Source: a virus
Virus record (IMG/VR): IMGVR_UViG_3300030333_000375
Coordinates: 1 to 21,035 of that record
Direction: 5' to 3' (one strand)
Length of the DNA stretch: 21,035 nucleotides
The notes under the pieces were generated by a model. That model made no database searches, was not told the origin of the DNA, and was given only the letters and a program-made list of their open reading frames with translations. A program made the position numbers and the translations under genes. Positions 1,501-17,834 of this stretch are shown in pieces (positions within the stretch are counted from its first letter, which is position 1; every line of letters begins with the position of its first letter).

Positions 1501-3096
1501 TCAACCACCCATGCCCGCAACTATGATTCCCTCCTGATATGGGATTAGTATCTTCTTCACTTCTTCCTCTAATTTCTGTATCTTGGATGGGAGATCGACA
1601 TTCTGAGTGCCTTCGGGGAACATTGCAGTATAATCATCAGTCATCATGATGTCTAAAGCTACCATCTTAGTGCAAGCATCCTCAATTGCCTTATCCAGAT
1701 ACCTTTCGCCATAGATGTAAGAGAGTTTGAGACTGTGATTCTCAAAGAATGGATATTGATTGTTGAACATGATCGCACCGTTGTCCTCCATAGACCACCA
1801 ATCCTTTTGCCTCTGCTCATCGGTTGAATCACTATCGAATCGTGTCTGGTAAATCTCAGTCACATTGGCAGATAGGCCGGATTGGAAATTTGATGTCAGA
1901 TCATCCACGATTGTCAAAGCATTTCCACTCCGAGTGCATCGTGCAACTTTGATGGCCGTTCCTGTCCCATAGTAATAGAGTCCATTTCCTTCTGTGAATG
2001 CAGAGCCATCTGTGACATTGAATGTGCTTCCTGTCGATGTGGCCGTTGAATTAATGGTGTTGCAGAGGCCAAGATCGAAGCAGCTTAGGTTTGTGACCGC
2101 AATAGTGGTAGTTTCTCCTTCATCAGTTGATCTCATGCTACTGATGAGGACTACGCCATCACCATCATCGCTGTTCGCAGTAGCCAGGAACTCATGTGCG
2201 ACATTGAGTGCTTTGCTATTCTCAGTCATGGTTCCTATTTGAACGGCGGTTTTGCCAGTCGAGTCATCTTGGTTGATTAGGTTGCCAATCTCTCCGGCAA
2301 TCGTCTTCACTCCGAAGTCCTTACTCCAAGTAGTAGCGGTTGTCCCTGTTTGAAGAGTGGCAACATGGGCTATGTTTGGACACAGATATATCTTGTCCGA
2401 ACTACTGAGGAGATGAGGGTCTTTGATGGTGAGTTGCACTCTGGATGATGCGAGTTCCCTGTAATGATCCCCCTGCCATACGCCCATTCGGAGGACTCTT
2501 TGGATGGGTCTGTTCCTAAGATAGACCGCACCGACATAATCGGTGTAGTATCTGCGCCTGTATGGTTTGAATGTAGTGAAGTTCTGATATTCATCGACAA
2601 CAAGCCTGGGCCTCCATGCTATTCTGCATATCCTGTCGATGTAGTCTTGCCTTCTCTTGATTAGATTCTCCACTTGTGATTTACTGATTCCTCTTTGTGA
2701 CGAATTAGACAGAATGGAAGCAGGTTGCACATACGCATCGTTTGCCTTCGTGTATGCAGTTCCAGGGTCAGTTGCTTTGAGAGTGATCCCGCCACTCGAA
2801 CCTGTCGATTCAATTCCTGATATGGTCAAACTACTCCCTAATGCATCCACGTTGTCATAGATAGTAATGGTGTCTCCTGTTGCAAAACCCCATCTGCGGT
2901 AATCCGCACCTGCAATTGGCATCTTGATTACCGTTCCACCCCCCTCTGAAGCGGTGGATGTGTTTCCAATCAGAGCTGTTGGCTTGGCATCAGGTAATTG
3001 AAGGTATGATTCCACTTTGGCGACTGTGGTATATACCAAGTCATCTGGATAGAGAGGTTGGTCGGGTCTATGCCCAGGAGTGAATGTGCGTGGCAT
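1501..3096 (-). CDS. Head-tail connector (gp6-like) with inserted beta domains
   Basis: This 531-residue protein is much longer than usual connectors, which have about 100-200 residues. Connector-like helical pieces are at residues 16-34 ('LYPDDLVYTTVAKVESYLQL'), 137-163 (helix with 'QVENLIKRRQDYIDRICR', then 'AWRP') and 467-515 ('YLDKAIEDACTKMVALDIM' onward, ending in a Lys/Glu-rich helix). Between them are Thr/Ser/Gly-rich beta segments at about 37-125 and 250-415, with phrases such as 'FNVTDGSAFTEGNGLYYYG' typical of small virion beta domains. The ATG has an AAGGAGG about 10 bases upstream. Position downstream of the capsid genes and upstream of the tail-completion gene fits a connector bound below the portal. 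The assignment rests on helix pattern and gene order. It could also be a larger neck or adaptor protein. Confidence 0.65.
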   Translation of the reverse strand: MPRTFTPGHRPDQPLYPDDLVYTTVAKVESYLQLPDAKPTALIGNTSTASEGGGTVIKMPIAGADYRRWGFATGDTITIYDNVDALGSSLTISGIESTGSSGGITLKATDPGTAYTKANDAYVQPASILSNSSQRGISKSQVENLIKRRQDYIDRICRIAWRPRLVVDEYQNFTTFKPYRRRYYTDYVGAVYLRNRPIQRVLRMGVWQGDHYRELASSRVQLTIKDPHLLSSSDKIYLCPNIAHVATLQTGTTATTWSKDFGVKTIAGEIGNLINQDDSTGKTAVQIGTMTENSKALNVAHEFLATANSDDGDGVVLISSMRSTDEGETTTIAVTNLSCFDLGLCNTINSTATSTGSTFNVTDGSAFTEGNGLYYYGTGTAIKVARCTRSGNALTIVDDLTSNFQSGLSANVTEIYQTRFDSDSTDEQRQKDWWSMEDNGAIMFNNQYPFFENHSLKLSYIYGERYLDKAIEDACTKMVALDIMMTDDYTAMFPEGTQNVDLPSKIQKLEEEVKKILIPYQEGIIVAGMGG

Positions 3097-5239: not shown

Positions 5240-6397
5240 CTAAGCGGCTATGTCCCTCACCTTTCCGTGTGCTCGGTAGAATAGTTGCCATAGCTCTCCC
5301 ATCGTGTGGAACATACCCATCTGTCCTAGCCTGTTGATCCCGAATGGGTCGCCTGTCTCAATACCAGACTCGTGGTATAGGGTTGGCTTGGCTGTGCAGA
5401 AGTAAATGTAGTCCGAGTCGATGAAATACATTCTGGATAGTTCGCCGTTTTCTGCGAAAACGTCCTTTGAAGGAATTAGTGGAACCCCGTTGTAGGTAGC
5501 GACCACGAAGCCCGCCTCCATACCTGGGACACCCTTAACACCGTTCACTCCTGGAACGACTCTCTTCATCTCGGTGAACCTCTGTTGAGGTTGTAGTAGC
5601 TGCTGAACCTTCTCCAGAGTGTCGTAGCCGGTTAGGATGACCTTTGGCTGGCCTCCCTTCTCCCATATGCTGCGGAACATTCCGTCAATCACGTTCAGAC
5701 TGAGTGCTCTAGCCGCACCGGAGGAACCTGCGTCACAGTTAGCGTCATACCAAGACTGGGCGGTTCCTGCGCTCCTCGTTAGGTTGTATTGGTTGTGATC
5801 TGCTGCATTCGACACGAAGGAAGATGCAGTTTCCACGAAGGAAGAGGACAAGCACCTGTCAAGGGACTCGAAGTCGTTCCCTGCGGCGTTGTCCACATCC
5901 TCTAGGAGCATGACGTTGATGTGCTCTGCGTGGTGCTTTGCCATCTCCATTTTCATTACTGCCCTTGCATCTCCAAGACCGTCATCCTTGTCGGCCAGGA
6001 ACATTGCTGTCTCGCTTAGGTCGAAGCTGTGAGCCACAGTCTTGGGCTTGGTGCTGACCTCTGCGAAGGTAGGCTTGGTGGTCTCTGGTAGAGTCCCGTT
6101 CTCAGGAAGTCCGCCACCCTTTGCCCTGTCAGGCTTCTCGGTGACTACCCTCCAACCCGACTTCTCCCAGGGTTTCTTTGGTAGTATGCTGAAGGCGTTG
6201 AACTCCTGGTTGAGCTGCGACCAAACCTTTCGGCCAAATATTGCCTGGTAGGTTCCAGTCGTGCTGCTTACTAGGGGTGAGTCTGCCTTGAGCAAGTCTG
6301 TTCCAGAGTAGGCCCATGCGTTTGCACCTGCACCCGCACCATAGTATAGCCTCTCCATGTCTTCTATTGTTCGTATGTATCCAACTGATCCACTCAT
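5240..6397 (-). CDS. Major capsid protein, HK97-like fold
   Basis: A 385-residue protein that should form the capsid shell. Family features are visible. An N-terminal arm contains 'QEFNAFSILPKKPWEKSGWR' (64-83). A Gly/Pro/Thr-rich E-loop-like region spans about 84-125. A long spine helix covers about 134-165 ('DARAVMKMEMAKHHAEHINV'). A P-domain segment 'QPKVILTGYDTLEKVQQLL' lies at 240-258, a 'GVPLIPSKDVF' strand-loop at 294-304, and an amphipathic C-terminus includes 'GELWQLFYRAHGKVRD'. The length suits an HK97-type protein without its own scaffold domain, in line with the scaffold-like tail on the neighbouring protease gene. The start ATG 6397 has a strong AAAGGAAGTG leader. Codons tend to end in C or G more than in the large upstream gene, which fits high expression. 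Confidence 0.9.
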   Translation of the reverse strand: MSGSVGYIRTIEDMERLYYGAGAGANAWAYSGTDLLKADSPLVSSTTGTYQAIFGRKVWSQLNQEFNAFSILPKKPWEKSGWRVVTEKPDRAKGGGLPENGTLPETTKPTFAEVSTKPKTVAHSFDLSETAMFLADKDDGLGDARAVMKMEMAKHHAEHINVMLLEDVDNAAGNDFESLDRCLSSSFVETASSFVSNAADHNQYNLTRSAGTAQSWYDANCDAGSSGAARALSLNVIDGMFRSIWEKGGQPKVILTGYDTLEKVQQLLQPQQRFTEMKRVVPGVNGVKGVPGMEAGFVVATYNGVPLIPSKDVFAENGELSRMYFIDSDYIYFCTAKPTLYHESGIETGDPFGINRLGQMGMFHTMGELWQLFYRAHGKVRDIAA

Positions 6398-6434: not shown

Positions 6435-7775
6435 TTACTCGCCTACCAATGCCCTCCTTGCAAGATCTTCTGTTGCTCTCCAAGAGTCAAGGTCGTTCCC
6501 CATTGCGGCGAACTCCTCGTTGGTTGGGACTCGAATGTCGGTTGTTGGTGCTGCGGCGGACTTCTGGATCTCTGCGGTTCCAGTGCTGATCGAAGCAATC
6601 TCCTCTCTGAGAGCCTTGATCTGTCCTCCGAAGTCGTTTGCCTTCTGAACCTCTAGCGCACGGGCGGTCTCTGCATCGTAGCGAGCCTCCCAATCTGCCT
6701 TTACAAGAGCCTTAAGCCCCTCCTCATCTCTGAGTGCAGCGTATGCCGAGTATCCTCTCTCTAGTCCTTCGGGAGTAATCCCGCCGGACTTGATCACGTT
6801 CTTGTTGCCCGATGGCTTTGAGTATGCCATGTTGCTAACGCCTGGCTGCTTGATGACGTATTTGTTGCCACCAGGAGCCGAAAGAGAAGGGTAAGAAGGC
6901 TCGGATGCGTCCTCGCCGCTTCCAACCTCGTCACCCATACCTCTGTGAGAGTAGCCACCTGAGCCGTCCACGCCGACCATGTATGCCTTCTCAAGACCGA
7001 AGTGAGTCCTCAGTCCATTGAGATCGACACCCTGCTCGTGTGCGAACTTCTCAAGAGTGTCGATGTATTCCAGAGCATCCTGAGTGGACTTCTCCAGCAC
7101 AGGCTCCTCTGACTTTTCTTCTGACTTCTCTTCAGATTTCTCCTCATTCTTGTCAATAGCCTTCAGTATTCCTGTTAGACTATCCCTTATTTCCGTCAAT
7201 GCTTCATTGTCTGTCATTTTTGTCACTTCCTCTTCATCCATCTTTAGGATTGTATAACTGGCCTCGGGATTGATTCCCTTCTTGCAGAGAGTTATCTCAT
7301 GCAACTCAAGGTCAGTAATCTCTCGGTGGTTGCCATGCTCAGGCGTGTGCTTGTTCACACGGAACAGGGCTTGGCCCCCTATTGAAAAGGCACGGAGATC
7401 TCCATCTCGCACCTGCTTTTGCACTTCTCGTGCCTTCTGAATGTCGCTGCGTATCTTGCATACGACAAAGAGGCCGTGATCGTCCACCTCGGACTTCCAC
7501 ACTCGCCCCTGCGAATCTGAATAGGAATCAACTACTTCTCCAACCTGAATACCGCTATGTGCTAACTGGACATTTCTGTAAGCCTTGTTCTCCATGAATT
7601 TTCCGAAGGCTTTCTTTAGAGCTGCGGCAGGGATTCTATCTCCCTGCTTGTCCACCATATCCACGCTTGCGTATCCGGCAACAAACAAATCATTGCCTGA
7701 ATCCTCTTTGATGAGGAAATCTGCACCAAAAGCAGACCATCCTACGGAGGGTGTTAGCATTTCTGCGGTTGCCAT
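6435..7775 (-). CDS. Prohead protease fused to scaffold-like C-terminal domain
   Basis: A 446-residue protein. Residues 1-175 match the HK97-type (S78/U35) prohead serine protease: 'GYASVDMVDKQGDRIP' near the start, catalytic His73 in 'NVQLAHSG', catalytic Ser131 in 'LRAFSIGGQ', and the conserved 'LELHEITLCKKGINPEA' strand with a probable third active-site acid at E160. Residues 187-446 are charged and helical with a KSEE repeat (about 213-226), a Gly/Ser-rich middle with two 'GNK-x-VIK' copies, and coiled-coil-like C-terminal helices, typical of scaffold. The protease cleaves scaffold and itself before DNA packaging. M187 (ATG 7217) has its own strong leader and could start a separate 260-residue scaffold. 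The main start is ATG 7775, with only a modest AGCAGGG upstream. Confidence 0.88.
   Translation of the reverse strand: MATAEMLTPSVGWSAFGADFLIKEDSGNDLFVAGYASVDMVDKQGDRIPAAALKKAFGKFMENKAYRNVQLAHSGIQVGEVVDSYSDSQGRVWKSEVDDHGLFVVCKIRSDIQKAREVQKQVRDGDLRAFSIGGQALFRVNKHTPEHGNHREITDLELHEITLCKKGINPEASYTILKMDEEEVTKMTDNEALTEIRDSLTGILKAIDKNEEKSEEKSEEKSEEPVLEKSTQDALEYIDTLEKFAHEQGVDLNGLRTHFGLEKAYMVGVDGSGGYSHRGMGDEVGSGEDASEPSYPSLSAPGGNKYVIKQPGVSNMAYSKPSGNKNVIKSGGITPEGLERGYSAYAALRDEEGLKALVKADWEARYDAETARALEVQKANDFGGQIKALREEIASISTGTAEIQKSAAAPTTDIRVPTNEEFAAMGNDLDSWRATEDLARRALVGE
7218..7238 (-). promoter_or_regulatory. Internal ribosome binding leader, possible nested scaffold start
   Basis: On the minus strand, GAAGAGGAAGTGACAAAA directly precedes the in-frame ATG 7217 (M187 of the protease gene). 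It is almost the same as the major capsid leader GATAAAGGAAGTGAAAAA. It lies exactly between the protease domain and the scaffold-like region. Initiation here would give a 260-residue protein ending at 6435. Confidence 0.5.
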
Positions 7776-7834: not shown

Positions 7835-10800
7835 TCACAGAGCATCATCATGACGAAGGGCTGGCAATACCTCGTTTTCGGTTTCATCATGATCTTTATC
7901 TTTCTTAGGGAATCGAATAACGGCTTTACCATCCTGGATAGTAAGCGAAGCATCCCCATCTTCTGTGGAAACGACCATGTTCATTGGCCTAAATGATGAT
8001 TCGGGATCCATTTCCACTCCTTCTCTCTTTGGATTACCAAAAGTAGTGTTTTCCTCGTCTGTAATTTCAGTCGGCCCTGTGGGTGCGGTGATGTCTGCTT
8101 GCATACCTGCCCAAGCTCCACCATCTCCTGATGCCCTATTCATACGGGGGAATGCGAACTTTTCCGCTATGTCATCATCAATCGCCTCATTGACAGTCCA
8201 TTTCTTGTCCTCTGTTTGCTCTAATCCATATTCGCCCCCATATTTGTCAAGCATACTCTCAGTCAGACCATCAACATGAGCGATGAGGTGTTTGGTTGTC
8301 AATGCCACTTCTTCTGAAGTAATTGCTTTACGAGCATGACGCATGATGTTTGAGATACTATCCTCATCATCATGTTCACCATCGACATTTACCTCTGGTG
8401 CTTTGTCAATAGATTTCCTAAAGACTGGCCTTTGTCTGTATGATGGTATTGCTTGATCGGGCAATCCAATGTATAGCGATGCAACCGGACTCCATAGTGG
8501 GAATTGAGATTCAGCTTGCTTGATAAGATAACTCGGCCCTTCATATTCAGAGACATATGTTCCGATTTCATCAGAATCGAGTTTTGCTACAACGGGAGTG
8601 TATATCCCAGGATATTCCAAAACGATATTTGAATCTCTAACACTCATCTCAGGAAGCGGAGGGAGGATAGCGGCTTTACTAATGTCATCCTGAGCATACA
8701 ACACCCACTTTGGATGAACCTCTTTGCCCTTAATGAATGTCGATTTAGCATCTCGAAGAAGTAAATCTGTTCGATCCAAATTGGCTATTGTCTTGATTAG
8801 ACCGTCTTCATCAGTAGTGACGCATGAGTTTGGTGAAGGGAAATGAACGTGATCATTGGTTGAATACAATGTCCTCAATGCATCAACACGATCAGACAAC
8901 GGCTCTTGACTCATATCTGTATCCTTGTGGACTAGCAGATCAACAACTGTCAGAACATCGCCATCCACATATCCGTCAAACATGGCATCGCCTTGCAAGG
9001 AGTCCTTGAGTGCCTTCTTCACTTTACTCGGCAGACTCATTGGCTCTATGCTCTTGCCGGACTTCTTTACGAAAACTCGCTCTCCTTTGGGTTTCTTTTG
9101 AACGACCCATTCGCCACTAAAACCCTTGAGAGTATCCATGTCATCCAAGTCTTTGACTACATGAGCAGGTTCTATCTTGGTCTTGAAAACACCTGTTGGC
9201 TCATAATCATCTGATTTGGTAATGTTATCTGTAAGATGGGGAGTTCCGGCCATAGTCGGTTGCAAGGCGTTGATTTCTTTTGACTTGGTATGAATGGGGC
9301 GTGTGGCGTGATTTACATCAACTGCATTCACTAACAATTCATGAGGGGTTCTCTGCAACATAGTAAATGGGGCTTCTTTGTTTTCCCATACCAAGTCATT
9401 TGCATTTCTATCCCATCTATAAGTCAGAGTAGCGGGCATTTCATGGCCCCATGAATCAGTAGCACCATTGTTGAATATCGGTGCTATGACTGATTCGGAA
9501 GCAGGAGAAACAGGGCCAAATGTCCCTATTTTGGATGATAATTGGCCGGATGAAGTATCAGGGATTTGATATTCAGTCGGATGGACTCCTCCTTTTCGCA
9601 TTAAAAGATGATTGGCGGCGGCTGCTATCTGTCCGATATTGCCTCTTGCAACTGTATTCATGTTGTGATCGCCATTGACTGGGTGCAAAACGTCCGGCCC
9701 GAATTGTTGCATTACCTGGGAGGCTAGTTGTGCCATGACGTTTGCAAGGGCCGAATCGCTATTCACACCATGTTGATTGTGTAGTTGGTGGAATGTTTGA
9801 TTCGAGTTTGGGTGTGGTTCTCTTAGCACACCCAATCTAGCAGAGCCAAGTTCAGCCACTTGCATTAATTGATCTCCAAAATTACTCAAGAGCAATGCTT
9901 CATCTGGTATGATTATTCTCGCACCTGCTCCTGATATTTCAGAAGGATGGTTGTTGTGACGCATGGCCGCAGAAGTCCATGCCGCCCTTCTTCTTTCAAA
10001 GTCCATATCTCCTGTTGAAAGAGAGCTAAGAGCAGATGCGAATTGAGGGGCCGAATTAGATGCGACAGGGAAATGTGAACCTCCTAGCATATGAGGCCCA
10101 TTAACTGGGACTCCATCAATCAATAAATCACTCAACCAATTCTCTCCAAAGACATTTGGATATGATTGAGATAGGATTGATTTGAGCGAACCGATGTCTC
10201 TACCCACTCCCCCATGAAACTGATAAGGTTCCCACCAATGGTAATTATGACCTGGTTCATCCCCGATGAAAGGAGAAGTCAATGCGGCATTCGGGACATC
10301 TTCTGGTGCAGACATAGTGGGGCCGCTTCTATCACTTGGCCTCTGCCACCATGCAGCAAGGGGGGTGAACCTATCTCGCCAGTTTCTCAAGTAGCGATTC
10401 CAATGCGTTCCGGTCTTCTCTTGGAATTTATTCAGAACGGTTCTTGCCTCTGGACTTTGTGGATCTTCCGTCTGACTCAATTCCTGAAGTAAGTTGTAAA
10501 ATTGCTCACTCTCTCCAGGACTGTGCCATTCTAAACCAAACAAGAAAGGAAGCATACCGAACTCATTAGCAAGGTATTGTCGCTTTTCTGACTCCCAATT
10601 CTCATCCGCACCGTAATCCCTGTTCCTATCACGTTCATACAAATCAAGCATTGAAATCTTTGGATCACCAAATATCATAGCATCTTCGGGTGATAACTTC
10701 ATCCCCTTCTCACTCATTTTGTGATTTTCTGCGATGAGATTGATGAAATCGAATATCTCATCAACATACTGGGGTTGGCCGTGAGATGCATTATGCAACA

Positions 10801-11140
10801 AAGGGAATGAGTTCGAGTTCATACCAAATGGGTGATGCTCTCCGTATGCATTGTCATCATTCGCTATCGGCCAGTCCTTCAAAGCAGATGTCGAAATCTT
10901 AGAATGACCTGCCAAATACGATTGGTAATCAGTAGGAATAACCATCTCAGACGGAGGAAGTGCAGATCCCAAATCCCTCATTGAATAAACAGGAGGGCTT
11001 TCTGCCATTGCCATAGCAGCCATATCTTCCTTTGTGATCTCGTTCCCATCTAAAGCATGGAGGTATTTCTCAAGAGGAGGCTCTTGGCCCATGATTGATG
11101 AGAGGACTACATCGGTTCTAAGTTTGACATAATCGGACAT
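7835..11140 (-). CDS. Giant protein (~1101 aa) with a ligase-like nucleotidyltransferase domain; probable virion/assembly protein
   Basis: The largest gene of the window. Residues 1-640 match no family I know; they are rich in His, Asn, Trp and Pro and contain no membrane segment. Residues about 642-815 resemble the adenylation domain of ATP-dependent DNA/RNA ligases. A motif-I-like K683-P-K-G-E-R688 follows 'WVVQK'. A motif-III-like 'FDGYVDGD' (721-728) is followed by 'VVDLL' (732-736). 'PLSDRVDALRTLY' (747-759) and a motif-IV-like 'LLLRDAKSTFIKGKE' with 'KWVLY' (793-815) complete the pattern. Canonical motif I is KxDGxR; here Asp is Lys, so activity is doubtful. The C-terminal 290 residues are acidic and unassigned. 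ATG 11140 is chosen because AAGGTGGG lies just upstream and the previous gene ends 10 bases earlier; an in-frame extension to 11164 is possible. Nucleic-acid binding in the virion or at packaging is inference. Confidence 0.85.
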   Translation of the reverse strand: MSDYVKLRTDVVLSSIMGQEPPLEKYLHALDGNEITKEDMAAMAMAESPPVYSMRDLGSALPPSEMVIPTDYQSYLAGHSKISTSALKDWPIANDDNAYGEHHPFGMNSNSFPLLHNASHGQPQYVDEIFDFINLIAENHKMSEKGMKLSPEDAMIFGDPKISMLDLYERDRNRDYGADENWESEKRQYLANEFGMLPFLFGLEWHSPGESEQFYNLLQELSQTEDPQSPEARTVLNKFQEKTGTHWNRYLRNWRDRFTPLAAWWQRPSDRSGPTMSAPEDVPNAALTSPFIGDEPGHNYHWWEPYQFHGGVGRDIGSLKSILSQSYPNVFGENWLSDLLIDGVPVNGPHMLGGSHFPVASNSAPQFASALSSLSTGDMDFERRRAAWTSAAMRHNNHPSEISGAGARIIIPDEALLLSNFGDQLMQVAELGSARLGVLREPHPNSNQTFHQLHNQHGVNSDSALANVMAQLASQVMQQFGPDVLHPVNGDHNMNTVARGNIGQIAAAANHLLMRKGGVHPTEYQIPDTSSGQLSSKIGTFGPVSPASESVIAPIFNNGATDSWGHEMPATLTYRWDRNANDLVWENKEAPFTMLQRTPHELLVNAVDVNHATRPIHTKSKEINALQPTMAGTPHLTDNITKSDDYEPTGVFKTKIEPAHVVKDLDDMDTLKGFSGEWVVQKKPKGERVFVKKSGKSIEPMSLPSKVKKALKDSLQGDAMFDGYVDGDVLTVVDLLVHKDTDMSQEPLSDRVDALRTLYSTNDHVHFPSPNSCVTTDEDGLIKTIANLDRTDLLLRDAKSTFIKGKEVHPKWVLYAQDDISKAAILPPLPEMSVRDSNIVLEYPGIYTPVVAKLDSDEIGTYVSEYEGPSYLIKQAESQFPLWSPVASLYIGLPDQAIPSYRQRPVFRKSIDKAPEVNVDGEHDDEDSISNIMRHARKAITSEEVALTTKHLIAHVDGLTESMLDKYGGEYGLEQTEDKKWTVNEAIDDDIAEKFAFPRMNRASGDGGAWAGMQADITAPTGPTEITDEENTTFGNPKREGVEMDPESSFRPMNMVVSTEDGDASLTIQDGKAVIRFPKKDKDHDETENEVLPALRHDDAL

Positions 11141-11150
11141 TTTCCCACCT

Positions 11151-11960
11151 TCATAGGCGGGCATAAATGCTTTCGATTAACCCCGCAATCTCTTCGACTA
11201 CTCCTTGCTGACCGACAGTAGCCTGTTTCTTGATTTCAGCTAGTGACTCCTCAACCTTAGCACGGTAGTCATAGTCTCCACCATCATTGAAGTGCATATG
11301 CAAGGATGACGAATCCTTGTCATACCCAGTCTGCGCTACTGATGGCATCTTGAAGACCTCGCTAATCGCTTTGGATTCAGAAGCATCCTCTGTGAAAGGT
11401 AATACTTGGTTGCCCTGGTATCCGGCAGCAGGTATCTCCGTCTTGCCTGAAATCTCCATGAACATGGGCTTGACATTATCTCCCGAACTCTCTTGGACAT
11501 ACTTCCTGATAAATTCCCGAGTAGCATCCTCCTTGCCGAACAGCTCTTGCATCTTTGCCCCTCTTTCGCCTGGGCCTCTCCTCTTATGCATGAACCTGGC
11601 AAATAGTGGGCCTTCTGTTGAGGAACCCCTTAGTTGCTCCTTATCCCAACGACCCATGCCACCATATTGGCGACCCATGTTCTCATCACTCGTTCCCCAA
11701 GCATCGAGGTCTTCCTCCGTGACAGAATCCCAATCGAAATCCTTGTATGATTTAGGATCGTATTCTGCAAGACCTTCGTTGAACTCTCCTTTTGCGACTC
11801 CCTTTGGCCCACAAGTCTTGCACTCAGGATCTTCACATCCCATGTTGCATTCATAATTGTAAGTCGAGTTCTTCTCTATGCCAACTGCCTTCTCGATGTC
11901 TCTCACGATTGCTAATAGCTTGCCTTCTGCGGTATCTTTCACGGGATCAACGAATCTCAT
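11151..11960 (-). CDS. Unknown protein with N-terminal Cys4 cluster
   Basis: A 269-residue protein with a Cys cluster near the N-terminus (C38-x3-C42-x4-C47-x2-C50 in 'CNMGCEDPECKTC'), probably binding one zinc ion. A charged, Gly-rich middle contains 'QYGGMGRWDKEQLRG', and the C-terminal helix ('AKVEESLAEIKKQATVGQQG' onward) looks like an oligomerisation segment. No enzyme motif is seen. ATG 11960 is preferred: AAGGAGA lies 7 bases upstream and the ATGA overlaps the previous stop by 4 bases; a longer in-frame start at 11990 lacks this support. It lies just before the giant ligase-like gene and is likely co-translated with it. Its function is not recognised. Confidence 0.78.
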   Translation of the reverse strand: MRFVDPVKDTAEGKLLAIVRDIEKAVGIEKNSTYNYECNMGCEDPECKTCGPKGVAKGEFNEGLAEYDPKSYKDFDWDSVTEEDLDAWGTSDENMGRQYGGMGRWDKEQLRGSSTEGPLFARFMHKRRGPGERGAKMQELFGKEDATREFIRKYVQESSGDNVKPMFMEISGKTEIPAAGYQGNQVLPFTEDASESKAISEVFKMPSVAQTGYDKDSSSLHMHFNDGGDYDYRAKVEESLAEIKKQATVGQQGVVEEIAGLIESIYARL

Positions 11961-12283
11961 CTTCTCATCTCCTTCTCTGCATCTTCCCACTCTCTAATCT
12001 CATCATGTCGTGAAATACTCTTGGCGATGAGATCGCCACTACCCTGGAAAGGGCCACTAAATGATTCCTGACCTGTTTCACGGTTCAATGGGTCGAATGC
12101 TTCATCTGCGTGAGGAGTGACAAACCTCTGCCACCCTTGAGCCTTCATTGCGGCAGTAGGATCATTGACGGCATTTCGCAATTCACGATTCTCCATCTTG
12201 AGGATTTCATTCTCTTCTTTGAGAACCTTAGCCTCCTCGATTGCGGCTTTGGCTATATCCATTGCATCTTCTGTATCTGACAT
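11957..12283 (-). CDS. Small coiled-coil protein, unknown function
   Basis: A 108-residue protein. Residues about 8-40 form a coiled coil with heptad hydrophobics ('AIEEAKVLKEENEILKMENR'), similar to a leucine zipper, followed by a Pro/Gly-containing linker and a charged C-terminal helix ending 'EIREWEDAEKEMRR'. ATG 12283 is chosen over GTG 12286 because AGGAGGTG lies 7 bases upstream of it. It overlaps the preceding stop by one base (TGATG). A dimerising assembly factor or small scaffold is possible; nothing identifies it further. Confidence 0.75.
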   Translation of the reverse strand: MSDTEDAMDIAKAAIEEAKVLKEENEILKMENRELRNAVNDPTAAMKAQGWQRFVTPHADEAFDPLNRETGQESFSGPFQGSGDLIAKSISRHDEIREWEDAEKEMRR

Positions 12284-13192: not shown

Positions 13193-13498
13193 CTATCGTT
13201 GCCCTTTGGCTCCGGCGTTCCTAAGCTTGGCATCAACAGAGGATTCGGCTTGTGTTTTCTTATGATCTGTGGAGTTTCCTCGGGTCGATGAGGATGCGTG
13301 TGAGCCACTCACTCTCTTGATATTCACCGGAGATTTACCTGCTGATGCTCGGGATGGTTTTCGTTGATCTCTCCCTAATGTCTTGAGGGGTGGTATGTCA
13401 GAACCATATGTCATGGCCTCGGACTCTTTGATTGGGCGTTGCCCGTAATCTAGTCCATCTCGCTTGACGACTTCCCATGCCTTCTCGAATGCGGTCAT
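13193..13498 (-). CDS. Small basic disordered protein with FEKAW N-terminal motif
   Basis: A 101-residue protein. The N-terminus carries 'FEKAWEVVKRD' (4-14), like 'FDKAWIAVRDD' (7-17) of the protein encoded at 17824-18975. From about residue 35 it is Ser/Lys/Arg/Gly-rich and probably disordered ('KPSRASAGKSPVNIKRVSG'), with a basic character suited to DNA or to filling an acidic surface. ATG 13498 overlaps the portal stop by 4 bases (ATGA), so it is probably coupled to portal translation. A minor head protein is plausible. No family is recognised. Confidence 0.72.
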   Translation of the reverse strand: MTAFEKAWEVVKRDGLDYGQRPIKESEAMTYGSDIPPLKTLGRDQRKPSRASAGKSPVNIKRVSGSHASSSTRGNSTDHKKTQAESSVDAKLRNAGAKGQR

Positions 13499-15009
13499 TG
13501 TGGAGGAGCACCCCCTCCGCCTGGTGGTGCGCCTCCGCCTGGTGGTGCGCCACCTCCTTGTTGCATCTGAGCCTCCTGGGCTTTAGCAGCAACCTCTTCA
13601 GGCGAAGGCTCCTTGAAGTCGAACTCCAAGAATTTGTCATCTATCTGATCTCTTAGTGCGGCATCGTATCCGGCTTGCTTCATCTGCATCATGTTGCGAA
13701 TAGCCATCTCATCTCTGCGGAATCGCATGATTTCATCCTCTTCCTCATGCGGATTCAATGTAATGTCCCACTCGGTTATTCCAAATGCCTCAAGCAGAAG
13801 GGGGAACAAGTGCCTGTTGTATATAGACTGAGAATAGGCCAATGCACGGTTCGTGACTACAATCTGCATTCCTTCGTTGTTCAGACCCCCTCCTGACACG
13901 TCATTCATGAATACATTTGACACTCCATAGTATGCAGATATGCGTTGTCTGATGTCATCCTTGATTGGGATATACTGCAATTCCTCAAGAGTATCCATCA
14001 TTCGGACATACTCAAGGCCACCACGTCCCGATTCGGTTTCGACTCCGATTGTTGGGACATAGCTCGGATCACGCTCAAGATGCTCTTGGATATTCCTCGC
14101 CGTCCTCTCGACAGTCTCCATGTTGGATGACTTGATTACCATGACTCCTCTTGGCATCCTCCTCTTCTGATATGCGGAATACACATAGTTATCCATAGCA
14201 ATCAAGGTATTGACTTGTCTCCACATAGTAGCAACAGGGCTACGACCATACAACTTGGATGGCGACCATTTACTGAGGTGGATGACTTCACCCTCTGTAT
14301 ATACCTGGCCGTTGCCCACACCTGCTAAGTTGATGTAATGGATTGGAACTACAGGCATACCAGAAACAGGGCATACTGCTTCAGGGTCACTTGACCTGAA
14401 TGAACGATCAATAAGACTGGTGTATTGGGTTCCTCCCCTTATCCCTCTCTTATCTGAAACAATACGCATGAAAATTGGGTCAGCTCTCGATACTTCCCTT
14501 ATTCGGAAAAACTGAGGTTGCTTAGTAGCAGGGTCAATGAAATACTCCTTTGTCAAGACCAAATATGCATCATCGACAATATTGAGATCCATTTCTATCT
14601 CTCGAAGAATGTCAATGAATTGCTGAGTCATCCTGTTCTGTCCACCCAGGATAGTTTCTGCATACTCAATCTGTCCCTTGTCTGCCTTGCGAACCTCTCC
14701 TCCGCATGACTTGCAAGTCTCGACCTCTTGGTGGAACTCAGATTCGCATTCGACACATTTTGAAACGAATTTTGCCTTCCATTCCCAACCCTTTCGGAAT
14801 GTCTCGACACATAGGTGATTGAGGATTGATCTCAAGACCATGCATTCGTAAGCTGCAGCATACAAAGCAGGGACGGTAATACCCTGGAGGAGAGGTGGTT
14901 CTTGAACTCCCTCTGTGAACAGGGGCATGGATGGGATGGGAGTGTTATATCGTTCCATGTCCATGCCAATGGCGGCAAACATCCTCTCCATTTTTTTATT
15001 ATCAACCAC
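13495..15009 (-). CDS. Portal protein with zinc-ribbon-like insert
   Basis: A 504-residue portal, the usual length for the family. It forms the dodecameric DNA-entry ring at one capsid vertex. Support: 'EGEVIHLSKWSPSKLYGRSP' in the core, followed by 'VATMWRQVNTLIAMDNY', a familiar portal stem/wing arrangement; then 'ISAYYGVSNVFMNDVSGG' and helices matching the clip-to-crown path; and position right after the terminase block. Residues 85-102 hold C85-x2-C88 and C99-x2-C102, a zinc-ribbon-like insert not standard for portals. The last 25 residues are Gly/Ala/Pro repeats. GTG 15009 is chosen because AGGTGAAGG lies upstream and it overlaps the previous stop by 8 bases; ATG 14991 is the alternative start. 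Confidence 0.88.
   Translation of the reverse strand: MVDNKKMERMFAAIGMDMERYNTPIPSMPLFTEGVQEPPLLQGITVPALYAAAYECMVLRSILNHLCVETFRKGWEWKAKFVSKCVECESEFHQEVETCKSCGGEVRKADKGQIEYAETILGGQNRMTQQFIDILREIEMDLNIVDDAYLVLTKEYFIDPATKQPQFFRIREVSRADPIFMRIVSDKRGIRGGTQYTSLIDRSFRSSDPEAVCPVSGMPVVPIHYINLAGVGNGQVYTEGEVIHLSKWSPSKLYGRSPVATMWRQVNTLIAMDNYVYSAYQKRRMPRGVMVIKSSNMETVERTARNIQEHLERDPSYVPTIGVETESGRGGLEYVRMMDTLEELQYIPIKDDIRQRISAYYGVSNVFMNDVSGGGLNNEGMQIVVTNRALAYSQSIYNRHLFPLLLEAFGITEWDITLNPHEEEDEIMRFRRDEMAIRNMMQMKQAGYDAALRDQIDDKFLEFDFKEPSPEEVAAKAQEAQMQQGGGAPPGGGAPPGGGGAPPQ
13514..13549 (-). repeat. Two perfect 18-bp tandem repeats in the portal 3' end
   Basis: The 18-base unit CCTCCGCCTGGTGGTGCG occurs twice in tandem on the plus strand, in codon phase. 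It encodes the Gly-Gly-Gly-Ala-Pro-Pro repeats of the portal tail. Copy number could vary without breaking the frame. Confidence 0.8.
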
Positions 15010-16423
15010 TTGCCTTCACCTGCTCTTTCATGTTGTCGAACTCGTCCACGCTTAATTTGTGTTTCCGCAAGAGTCTGGAGCGATCCTTTGCCTCAACTGT
15101 ATCATATGCCATTACAATTAGAGTGTCTCTATCACCCCTCAATGCAGAAAGCATATTGCGAGGAGAAGGATATTCACCGCCATTTGACAAATGGGGTTCG
15201 GCCATTTCCAATGCCTTAAGGACAGAGGAGTCGCCTTCGATGACTAACCCTGAACCTTCTGCCTTTACTCCCAATATGCCTTCTTTCTTCAATGCCTCTG
15301 CATACCAGGGTGCTGATGGTGCATTGAAGTTGATCTCAAGACGGGGGTAAAATCTCGTATCGAATTTGAAATTACTATTGTTGTCAATCAGACCTGCGAG
15401 GAATTGGTCTGCATCCTTCAAGATGACATCTCTGCGCTTGATGTCATAGAATAATCCACGCCCCGTTGATTTACTAAATTGGCCTATTGCGATTATATCG
15501 AAGAGGAATCCATGAGATTTAATGAGTGATGAAATCTCAGCAGGGCTTGCTTGGACACCATATGATTTGAGAGTCTGAGCATTTATTGCACCCCTTGATG
15601 CTAAAATCTCTCTGCAATTATCAAGGATGCCTCTTTCTCGATGAGATAGCCTTTCAGATTTGTCAAGAGTAGTCCTCCATAGCTTCTCGGCCTGACTCCT
15701 CCCCTCTTCATCCGAGGCAGACACCCATGACTTGACGAAACGGCGAAAGGGCAAATTCAACCTCTCACTATTCTGATTCAATGAGTCATAGTCCAAATCC
15801 GTCAGAGGCAATGAACCTACGAGATCAGGTGATACGCCTGGGAATTGAGAAAGAGTGGCTTGTTTCTCTAAGAGGAGAAGAGGCTGGATTGAATCCAACA
15901 CCTTGATTTCGTTGCCTTTTATGAGAATCTCTGTCAGTTCACGCCCTGTCATCCCGAAGTTGTCCTGAAACCATGTATTCATCTTGGCTACGGGTATCTG
16001 AGGTGCTTCAGGTGGCAAAGCTGTTCCTTCTTGCTCAGTTGGAACATCGCTTTCTGCACTATCCATCCCCTCTATCTCTGCCCCCTGTCCTTCTTCTGGT
16101 GCGGCAGGAGTAGTGGCCGCCGCCGCCTGTTCCTGTTCGGCCTGTTCCTGTTCGGCCTGTTGTAATTCTAATTCGGCTGCATCTAACTCTCCTTGTTTCG
16201 CCTGTATTTTGTCCGTGATGGCTTTCATCCCCATTTGACCCATTGGAGAAGCCAAAGCCTTCCCTGCGGCCTTCCCTGCGGACGCAACTTTCGGTGCAGC
16301 GGACGCAACTCCTCGACCAACTACTGCAGCCCCTCGACCAATTGCTGCAATTGCAGGTAAGATCTTCTCAACTGAGTCTGTCATATCCTCCACACCTGGG
16401 GTTGGTTCTATGTATTCACGCAT
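15002..16423 (-). CDS. Unknown packaging-cluster protein with degenerate LAGLIDADG-type domain
   Basis: A 473-residue protein between terminase and portal. Residues about 14-70 are Ala/Gly-rich amphipathic sequence ('ILPAIAAIGRGAAVVGRG'), followed by a Gln/Glu/Ala-rich linker (about 75-145). Residues 257-330 look like a winged-helix segment. Residues about 331-415 resemble a single-motif LAGLIDADG homing-endonuclease fold: 'FLAGLIDNNSNF' (341-352), a strand 'RLEINFN' (361-367), 'WYAEALKKEGILG', then 'GSGLVIEGDSSVLKALEMA' onward. The catalytic acidic position of LAGLIDADG is Asn here, suggesting loss of cleavage. ATG 16423 is chosen because its 8-base overlap with the terminase stop implies coupling; an in-frame extension to 16456 exists. 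A DNA-binding structural or packaging role is inferred; an active nuclease is less likely. Confidence 0.8.
   Translation of the reverse strand: MREYIEPTPGVEDMTDSVEKILPAIAAIGRGAAVVGRGVASAAPKVASAGKAAGKALASPMGQMGMKAITDKIQAKQGELDAAELELQQAEQEQAEQEQAAAATTPAAPEEGQGAEIEGMDSAESDVPTEQEGTALPPEAPQIPVAKMNTWFQDNFGMTGRELTEILIKGNEIKVLDSIQPLLLLEKQATLSQFPGVSPDLVGSLPLTDLDYDSLNQNSERLNLPFRRFVKSWVSASDEEGRSQAEKLWRTTLDKSERLSHRERGILDNCREILASRGAINAQTLKSYGVQASPAEISSLIKSHGFLFDIIAIGQFSKSTGRGLFYDIKRRDVILKDADQFLAGLIDNNSNFKFDTRFYPRLEINFNAPSAPWYAEALKKEGILGVKAEGSGLVIEGDSSVLKALEMAEPHLSNGGEYPSPRNMLSALRGDRDTLIVMAYDTVEAKDRSRLLRKHKLSVDEFDNMKEQVKASG
16125..16161 (-). repeat. 15-bp tandem repeats encoding Glu-Gln-rich linker
   Basis: Two full copies and a partial copy of GCCTGTTCCTGTTCG (plus strand) in codon phase encode the Glu-Gln-Glu-Gln-Ala linker of the LAGLIDADG-like protein. 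This is a low-complexity coding repeat. Confidence 0.75.
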
Positions 16424-17834
16424 CCGCCCACCCCAACCTGTTCTTCCACATCTCACCGTCTAGGATAATTATGTTTTCTCGATATTCCTTAGTCGCTTGC
16501 ACCGAAAGTGCAAGGGCAATCACCATGTCATCATGTGCTCCGAGGCTTTCCATGCGTCCATTATCAAGCATGGTGAACATGGATAATTCATTCAACAGAG
16601 TGTTCATGTGTCGCCTTGTCGCACCTTCATCTTTGTATGGGATCAGAAGATGCCTTTGCTCGAAGTGCAATTGCAAAGTATGAATCAATGCCTCTTTCTT
16701 CATGCGACTCATGTTGAATGGTTTGATGGGCAAATCGCTAATTTCCTGCAGGACTTGGTTGAATGCCATAGCGAAGTTGTTAGTTTCTAACTCGATGATG
16801 ACTGGATTGAATCGGGCATTCAATTCGATAATCTTGTCAATCTGTTGATTGAAATTCATGTTCTTCTCATGGTGAACATGGACTACACGCTTGTGTCTAT
16901 TCTCATCCATGCCTATCACTATCATACAAGTATAGTCTGCACTCCTATCTGCGCTGATTGCCGGATCCCACCCAATGTAGTAATTTAGGGTCTGATCAGG
17001 ATCAGGATAGTATGAGAGCATCAGCGAATCATCTTTGACTCTCTCTAACATCTCCTCGGGGAATAAGCTGGATTCACTTGCTATTGGCTTGCATAAGTAT
17101 TCACGAGTGAAAGCTATGGATGTCATCTCACCCCTTCGTGTATTTAGAGCATCCAAACTCCACCTCTCCGGCCATAGCGGTTCTCCTGTTGCTTCATTGA
17201 TTGCAGGGTATTCATTTACACAATAACCATCCAAACTCTTCAATTCGGAGTATAGGTCTGTGAATGAGAACGGAGTGCCGACAACGCACATCTGAGCAGT
17301 ATGGTGGAGAACAGGGAGCAGAGCTGTATAGAACCATGTGGATATTGATTTCAACTGAGTATCGGCCTCACTCGAAAGAATGTCATCCAGGATAACTATG
17401 TCAGGGTGAGCACCACGAACTGCTTTACCTATGGACATCGCTCGAACAGATGATTTGTTTGTGAATTTGAAAAGTTGCTTTGCCCATCCTCGCTTGGGCT
17501 TGAGATGTGCTAAGGCAGGTGTAGTGACAATCAGCTCATCCATCTTGCTCATGTGATCTATGGATTGGTGTTGGCTGTGACTGAAGAAGAGGACTTCTGT
17601 TCCTGGGTTGTATGCCATCTTCCATAGGAGATAGACCCTGAAGAATACTGACTTGCCGTGATCACGACTCGCTATAACGCAGACTTTGTTGTGCTTCTCT
17701 GCATTTTCATACCACTCCTTGTGAAAATGAGCTAATTGGAAACCACAGATGTCCTCAAAGAAGAATCGGAAATCCCGTCTCCCCATATCCCAATCGACTT
17801 TACTCGTTAGTTCGAGCATTGCCTCATTGGTCAA
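16416..17834 (-). CDS. terL: Terminase large subunit
   Basis: A 472-residue DNA packaging motor with ATPase and nuclease domains, the usual length. ATPase: Walker A 'ASRDHGKS' (55-62, atypical but terminase-like), Walker B 'DIVILDD' (145-151), coupling motif 'VVGTPFS' (184-190). Nuclease (RNase H-like): 'GWDPA' with D290, 'IIELE' with acids at 348-350, and 'HDDMVIALAL' with D435/D436. All key acids are present, so both activities should be intact. The start TTG 17834 has GGGGTGG 4 bases upstream; it overlaps the preceding stop by 11 bases. ATG 17819 is a possible start but has a very short ribosome-site spacing. The small subunit is not identified in this window; the truncated helix-turn-helix gene at the right edge is one candidate. 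Confidence 0.94.
   Translation of the reverse strand: MTNEAMLELTSKVDWDMGRRDFRFFFEDICGFQLAHFHKEWYENAEKHNKVCVIASRDHGKSVFFRVYLLWKMAYNPGTEVLFFSHSQHQSIDHMSKMDELIVTTPALAHLKPKRGWAKQLFKFTNKSSVRAMSIGKAVRGAHPDIVILDDILSSEADTQLKSISTWFYTALLPVLHHTAQMCVVGTPFSFTDLYSELKSLDGYCVNEYPAINEATGEPLWPERWSLDALNTRRGEMTSIAFTREYLCKPIASESSLFPEEMLERVKDDSLMLSYYPDPDQTLNYYIGWDPAISADRSADYTCMIVIGMDENRHKRVVHVHHEKNMNFNQQIDKIIELNARFNPVIIELETNNFAMAFNQVLQEISDLPIKPFNMSRMKKEALIHTLQLHFEQRHLLIPYKDEGATRRHMNTLLNELSMFTMLDNGRMESLGAHDDMVIALALSVQATKEYRENIIILDGEMWKNRLGWADA

Follow-up and report, generated by a model that had tools for sequence, protein, structure and literature searches.

The window analysed here is the whole of an IMG/VR virus record, 21,035 bases long, whose minus strand carries almost all of the large genes. 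The genes in the order that follows, and the features of the 1109-aa protein, are on that strand. The gene order is terminase large subunit (TerL; 16416..17834; Pfam PF17289, E 9e-11; PHROG 38, E 4e-75), portal protein (13495..15009; Pfam PF04860, E 2.5e-10; PHROG 18178, E 3e-52), several smaller genes, a single ORF encoding a protein of 1109 aa (7835..11164, stop codon counted), an S78 prohead protease that adjoins this ORF downstream (6435..7775; Pfam PF04586, E 4e-10), a major capsid protein (MCP) of the SU10/HK97 type (5240..6397; Pfam PF17236, E 1.6e-8; PHROG 24667, E 8e-53), and further genes. An earlier, sequence-only reading had described a set of ligase-like peptides inside one long protein encoded between portal and protease. 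All the peptides it quoted are in frame within the 1109-aa ORF, at the places it gave, and the gene does lie between portal and protease, a location that relatives conserve. Directly upstream of the 1109-aa gene, and overlapping its start, lies a gene (11151-11990) with a weak KTSC-domain match (E 0.005) near the C-terminus.

Full-length homologues of the 1109-aa protein are encoded in many marine viral contigs: three overlapping searches of viral contigs returned 16, 59 and 108 relatives. As a whole, the protein gave no significant family match in Pfam, PHROGs or PDB sequences, and no effector, peptidase or anti-restriction domain was found in it with Pfam or PHROGs. The full-length AlphaFold2 model has a mean pLDDT of 80.4. 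The N-terminal region (residues 1-650; 9215..11164), modelled with high pLDDT, is mostly helical and has no recognised relative, with no match in Pfam, PHROGs or PDB sequences and no profile match to ligases. It is followed by a degenerate ATP-dependent ligase nucleotidyltransferase (NTase) domain at residues ~655-830 (8675..9202), recognised with hhalign, blastp and Foldseek, and then by a small domain (residues 838-905; 8450..8653); only about 65 modelled residues stand between the NTase and a disordered linker. The C-terminal segment (residues 985-1040; 8045..8212) is strongly conserved, with a majority-residue frequency of 0.73-0.81, and mostly predicted to be disordered, pLDDT being below 50 over residues 994-1060. 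The stretch that is both conserved and predicted to be disordered (about 994-1040) is a candidate docking or binding segment.

In a genome scan we found a remote relative, L081 (NZMJ01000101.1), on a contig labelled Maricaulis that carries TerL, portal, protease and MCP genes. Since it has these tailed-virus genes and its ligase, used as a query, was matched at 100% by the viral contig L082, L081 is a misbinned virus and the Maricaulis MAG bin is contaminated. Its head-slot gene encodes an 842-aa ATP-dependent ligase (PF01068, E 1.6e-30) with the motifs KYDGIR, DAEL, FDIM, EGVVIKD and WIKFK. This intact form (~840 aa) is encoded by no fewer than 119 viral contigs. When viruses of the pseudo-ligase kind, to which the window belongs, are compared with those of the intact-ligase kind, the identity of TerL, portal, protease and MCP is 34-42%. 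In loci not cut by a contig end the intact ligase stands between portal and protease, and the 1109-aa type of protein stands between the same two genes in pseudo-ligase loci; some of the loci compared lie on the same contig, and in a few the sequence begins too far along to show the portal. The shared slot in the magrovirus-like contigs is the X of TerL-portal-X-protease-MCP. None of the named phage records in INPHARED encodes a pseudo-ligase protein or an intact head-slot ligase. Between TerL and portal, L081 also has an ORF (1704-3020) that contains AAFIDSDGYITMDKN, a LAGLIDADG-like stretch, and may encode a homing endonuclease.

Searches with single proteins were not decisive, and the ligase signal emerged only with family profiles. 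The isolated window domain matched Pfam DNA_ligase_A_M (PF01068) at E 0.0046 (0.0034 for the best homologue, with matches in 10 of 13 homologues), and the best match to NCBIfam NHEJ_ligase_lig had an E of 2.5e-4, all of these single-sequence matches lying under the curated cut-offs; for PF01068 the window scored 17.1 bits against a gathering score of 26.2, compared to 109.4 for the intact head-slot ligase. Against the L081 ligase, the domain is 24% identical (blastp E 6e-14). When we aligned the profiles of 47 non-redundant pseudo-ligases and 35 intact sequences with hhalign, residues 655-830 matched at 99.5% (E 5e-23) with a score of 164.8, compared to 10.9-22.7 for 20 column-shuffled controls. 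With the full proteins the match was 99.2%, and the small domain at 838-905 matched template positions 572-616 of the intact ligase weakly (70.5%, E 3.9e-5, 45 columns), in the part that follows the OB domain there. Residues 10-640 and 905-1109 gave no match to the intact ligases in hhalign. The structural comparison proposed in the earlier reading pointed the same way: the top PDB matches of the AlphaFold2 model in Foldseek were archaeal and human DNA ligases, or end-joining complexes that contain a ligase (best E 1.4e-7, probability 1.00), and the one-domain target 10ye, the NTase of DNA ligase III, gave a TM of 0.62 by target length over 211 columns. The alignment behind this good model took in intact ligases, so the fold match is not fully independent, and a model built from 15 pseudo-ligase sequences alone was poor (pLDDT 49). 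Matches to LRRC8C, seen when an HMM of 13 close homologues was compared with the PDB, were rejected as noise.

The weakness of the single-sequence searches is what one would expect if short motifs in an unrelated protein resembled those of a ligase by chance. Such a coincidence has a negligible probability, and we rejected it on the profile-profile match with its shuffled controls, the conserved slot, the intact homologues that occupy it and the fold match. The domain, as modelled, is an NTase fold of the ligase/capping superfamily, and its derivation from a ligase, as the earlier reading had supposed, is in our judgement close to certain.

Canonical ligase motifs read K-x-D-G-x-R (I), D-(G/A)-E (III), EG-x-x-x-K (IV) and W-x-K-x-K (V). 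Residues were counted at these columns in the 47 non-redundant pseudo-ligases and the 35 intact ligases. Motif I is left in the window as KPKGER (residues 691-696; 9077..9094). The earlier remark that its Asp has become Lys while the Lys, Gly and Arg positions are kept holds for the window, but in the family the Lys and Arg are not conserved: the position of K691 has K in 31/47, M in 14/47, R in one and V in one (K in 35/35 intact ligases), and the Arg position has Arg in 36/47 and His in 11/47. The Lys having been lost in 16/47, that of KPKGER is best seen as a leftover. The Asp is replaced in every homologue, mostly by K or E, compared to D in 35/35 intact ligases. A check of homologues for KxDG, also proposed earlier, found it in 0/122 pseudo-ligase ORFs, versus K(Y/F)DG(M/I)R in 80/80 intact ones. 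Motif III survives as FDGY (residues 729-732; 8969..8980) within FDGYVDGD (729-736), and the position of its Glu, present in 35/35 intact ligases, holds Y in 36, V in 6, F in 4 and T in 1 of the 47. In motif IV (LLLRDAKSTFIKGK, residues 801-814; 8723..8764) the Glu-Gly pair is lost and the Lys is Arg in 47/47 (K in 35/35 intact). Motif V (KWVLY, residues 819-823; 8696..8710) retains an invariant Trp. Its first Lys has become L, R, H and others (K in 1/47, versus 35/35 intact) and its second is mostly A, with K absent among the residues listed (35/35 intact). Other positions have not changed at all: Asp742, in the motif IIIa remnant VVDLL (residues 740-744; 8933..8947), is invariant in both families, and so are L756 and R759 of the PLSDRVDALRTLY helix (residues 755-767; 8864..8902), which corresponds to the ligase 'PL.eR' region. 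The OB domain is missing, appearing as a gap of ~110-130 aa in the hhalign alignment.

These losses bear on the proposal, made in the earlier reading, of nick repair with an altered motif. The window does keep the motif I Lys and Gly, the IIIa Asp and the motif V Trp, and one could imagine a nucleotidyltransferase with a rewritten active site that is still active in nick repair, end capping or protein AMPylation. The family counts make this very improbable: the motif I Lys is lost in a third of the sequences, the motif I Asp, the motif III Glu and both motif V Lys are essentially gone throughout, the motif IV Lys is always Arg, and there is no OB domain. On the same grounds we rejected an active ligase with altered motifs, and from its sequence the domain of the window lineage very probably has no ligase activity. 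It is in use all the same, because dN/dS is at or below 0.09 in all pairs with a measurable dS, selection being no weaker in the domain than elsewhere in the protein. The domain is a trap for annotation: it resembles a ligase, yet the label 'ligase' is unwarranted.

The earlier reading had also held that ligases normally lie in replication regions. Besides the head-slot ligase, 7 of 8 long contigs of the intact kind (84-96 kb; L084, L092, L115, L125, L130, L138 and L143, contigs G029-G035) carry a separate PF01068 ligase, 509-526 aa long, whose gene lies far outside the head operon. As an ordinary ligase is found elsewhere in these seven, the head-slot enzyme is a second ligase; the remaining contig, of 74 kb, has only the head-slot copy. 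In the long contigs of the pseudo-ligase kind (up to 108 kb) there was no PF01068 match over the cut-off, and 14 of them had no NAD ligase (PF01653) or RNA ligase (PF09414); these contigs are possibly incomplete, so that absence of a ligase is unproven for any single virus. A family B DNA polymerase (PolB) is present in some of the long pseudo-ligase contigs and missing from others. In G029-G036, the contigs of L084, L130, L138, L143, L092, L125, L115 and L144, PF00136 is matched by one ORF of about 550-590 aa and by another, separate one of about 300-320 aa, which would fit a split polymerase gene.

One relative offers a link to a host. L080 (CACGHY010000002.1, 106,262 bases) is a contig of a Poseidoniales single-cell genome that carries the head module of the window, and the presence of a pseudo-ligase relative there suggests that Marine Group II archaea are the hosts. 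Among 30 genomes of the order Poseidoniales (G037-G066), 29 encode an NAD+-dependent ligase and none an ATP-dependent DNA ligase, while in a sample of 60 genomes from across the phylum 37 have an ATP-type ligase. With 0/30 in the host order, the viral ligases were probably not acquired from these hosts. We built a tree of NTase domains from pseudo-ligases, head-slot ligases, 7 replication-type ligases and 12 cellular ligases of the phylum; it came from a quick search and has long branches. Pseudo-ligases and head-slot ligases form one clade (support 98), apart from the replication-type and cellular enzymes, and within it the two are sisters, with a support of 90 for the head-slot ligases. From the shared synteny and the small match after the OB domain (70.5%), we infer that a ligase was established in this slot before the pseudo-ligases arose from it.

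By their gene order, PolB and total size, the contigs L081-L161 appear to be group A magroviruses (Apasviridae, Magrovirales); these contigs have the same order of portal, ligase, prohead protease and MCP, together with a homologous domain and head module. Their enzyme has all the catalytic motifs tested as well as an OB domain, and most of the long contigs encode it beside another ligase, whereas the window protein is ~270 aa longer, lacks the OB domain and is inactivated. In the part of the literature available to us, a group A magrovirus read is reported to span an ATP-dependent ligase gene and a prohead protease gene (PMC7318539), and the passages that deal with the magrovirus DNA ligase class it among replication genes (PMC10160649, PMC12999244, PMC10768690). 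These passages speak of no second ligase in the head slot and no degenerate version, although an earlier mention elsewhere is possible; a literature text search for two DNA ligases in an archaeal virus found none. Compared to archaeal and eukaryotic ATP-dependent ligases (PF01068; PDB 4eq5, 2cfm, 3gde, 10ye), the window domain shares the NTase fold and the positions of motifs I, III, IIIa, IV and V, and differs in its replaced catalytic residues, its missing OB domain and the lack of a recognised N-terminal DNA-binding domain. The pseudo-ligase is real and well supported, new within the ligase family and unusual in its genomic place.

The comparison suggests that these ligases form a lineage connected with the assembly of heads or the packaging of DNA. 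From the position of the gene, a role of some kind in head assembly, packaging or the virion is probable for the 1109-aa protein, and we favour, with similar confidence, the reading that it is a catalytically dead sister of the head-operon ATP-dependent ligase with a non-catalytic head or packaging role. Of the options in the earlier reading, the module that binds DNA ends fits best, or else a structural module. DNA binding as the retained function is plausible, if somewhat doubtful; the slightly negative mean net charge of the NTase domain (-1.7) calls for caution here. A model for a DNA-contacting head protein, by analogy only, is offered by DarA/Hdf of phage P1, which are inside the capsid, bound to DNA and shell, and exit with the DNA (PMC12810830).

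An injected, polyvalent protein would be an alternative: packaged in the capsid, ejected with the DNA and acting in the new host cell, with the ligase-like domain as one binding module among several, for instance to shield DNA ends or nicks or to bind a host repair factor. Polyvalent proteins are found where this large multidomain protein is encoded, among the head genes of viruses with a portal and a terminase (PMC5512222), and in the related haloarchaeal Druskaviridae (HVTV-1 gp113/gp115, HCTV-1, HCTV-5, HCTV-16) the portal-protease interval likewise holds multidomain proteins of 1.0-1.3 kaa. The domains of that interval differ, being zeta toxin and ParB in some annotations, with a separate ADP-ribosyltransferase, and the window protein has no detectable homology to them. 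It also has no recognised effector, peptidase or anti-restriction domain, and the ligase passages of PMC5512222 show no ligase domain of the NTase type. We regard an injected protein as unlikely. We would give about the same small weight to an assembly factor that stays out of the virion (a chaperone, a scaffold, or a terminase or portal cofactor) and uses the ligase fold only as a platform for protein-protein contacts. The neighbouring protease and MCP genes, the conserved disordered C-terminus and the lack of net positive charge in the domain would all suit it, but purifying selection has preserved the core fold of a DNA enzyme here, and many invariant residues are in common with the active enzyme, neither of which an arbitrary platform would require.

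For the favoured reading, that of a dead sister with a non-catalytic head or packaging role, we propose the following history, whose mechanism we infer. In an ancestral archaeal tailed virus, the slot between portal and prohead protease would have housed a ligase with NTase, OB and additional C-terminal domains, distinct from the one normally used in replication. This ligase would have stayed intact in magrovirus-like lineages, possibly for sealing DNA nicks at or just before packaging. In the window lineage the OB domain would have been lost, the catalytic residues replaced and the protein extended to ~1100-1200 aa, with the NTase fold retained under strong purifying selection. The dead form may be a minor component of the head or of packaging that binds DNA or a partner, perhaps with the conserved disordered C-terminal segment as its anchor; the sealing of nicks would in that case fall to the NAD+-dependent ligase of the host. 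In T4, fewer heads are filled with DNA when ligases are deficient, and strands without breaks are preferred by the packaging motor (PMC10893049, PMC10250835). We suggest only tentatively that tailed viruses of Poseidoniales have a dedicated head or packaging ligase, distinct from the one for replication, and that the pseudo-ligase of sister lineages binds nicks or ends, without sealing them, at the portal or in the capsid interior.

Our data suggest that many such viruses carry two ATP ligases, one of them in the head operon, in contrast to a host order that seems to have an NAD+ ligase only, and that a large sister group retains a dead version under strong selection. Two testable questions follow: whether nick sealing is coupled to packaging in some tailed viruses, and what a ligase fold does once catalysis is lost. 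If the more tentative suggestion, that of a pseudo-ligase binding nicks or ends, is true, a virus head has taken over a DNA-repair enzyme as a structural component or as a checkpoint.

As a separate observation on the head module, the portal of the window contains, at residues ~75-107, a four-cysteine zinc-ribbon-like stretch, CVECESEFHQEVETCKSCGG, with weak DZR/zinc-ribbon matches, and the portals of L080 and L081, that is, of both lineages, have it too.
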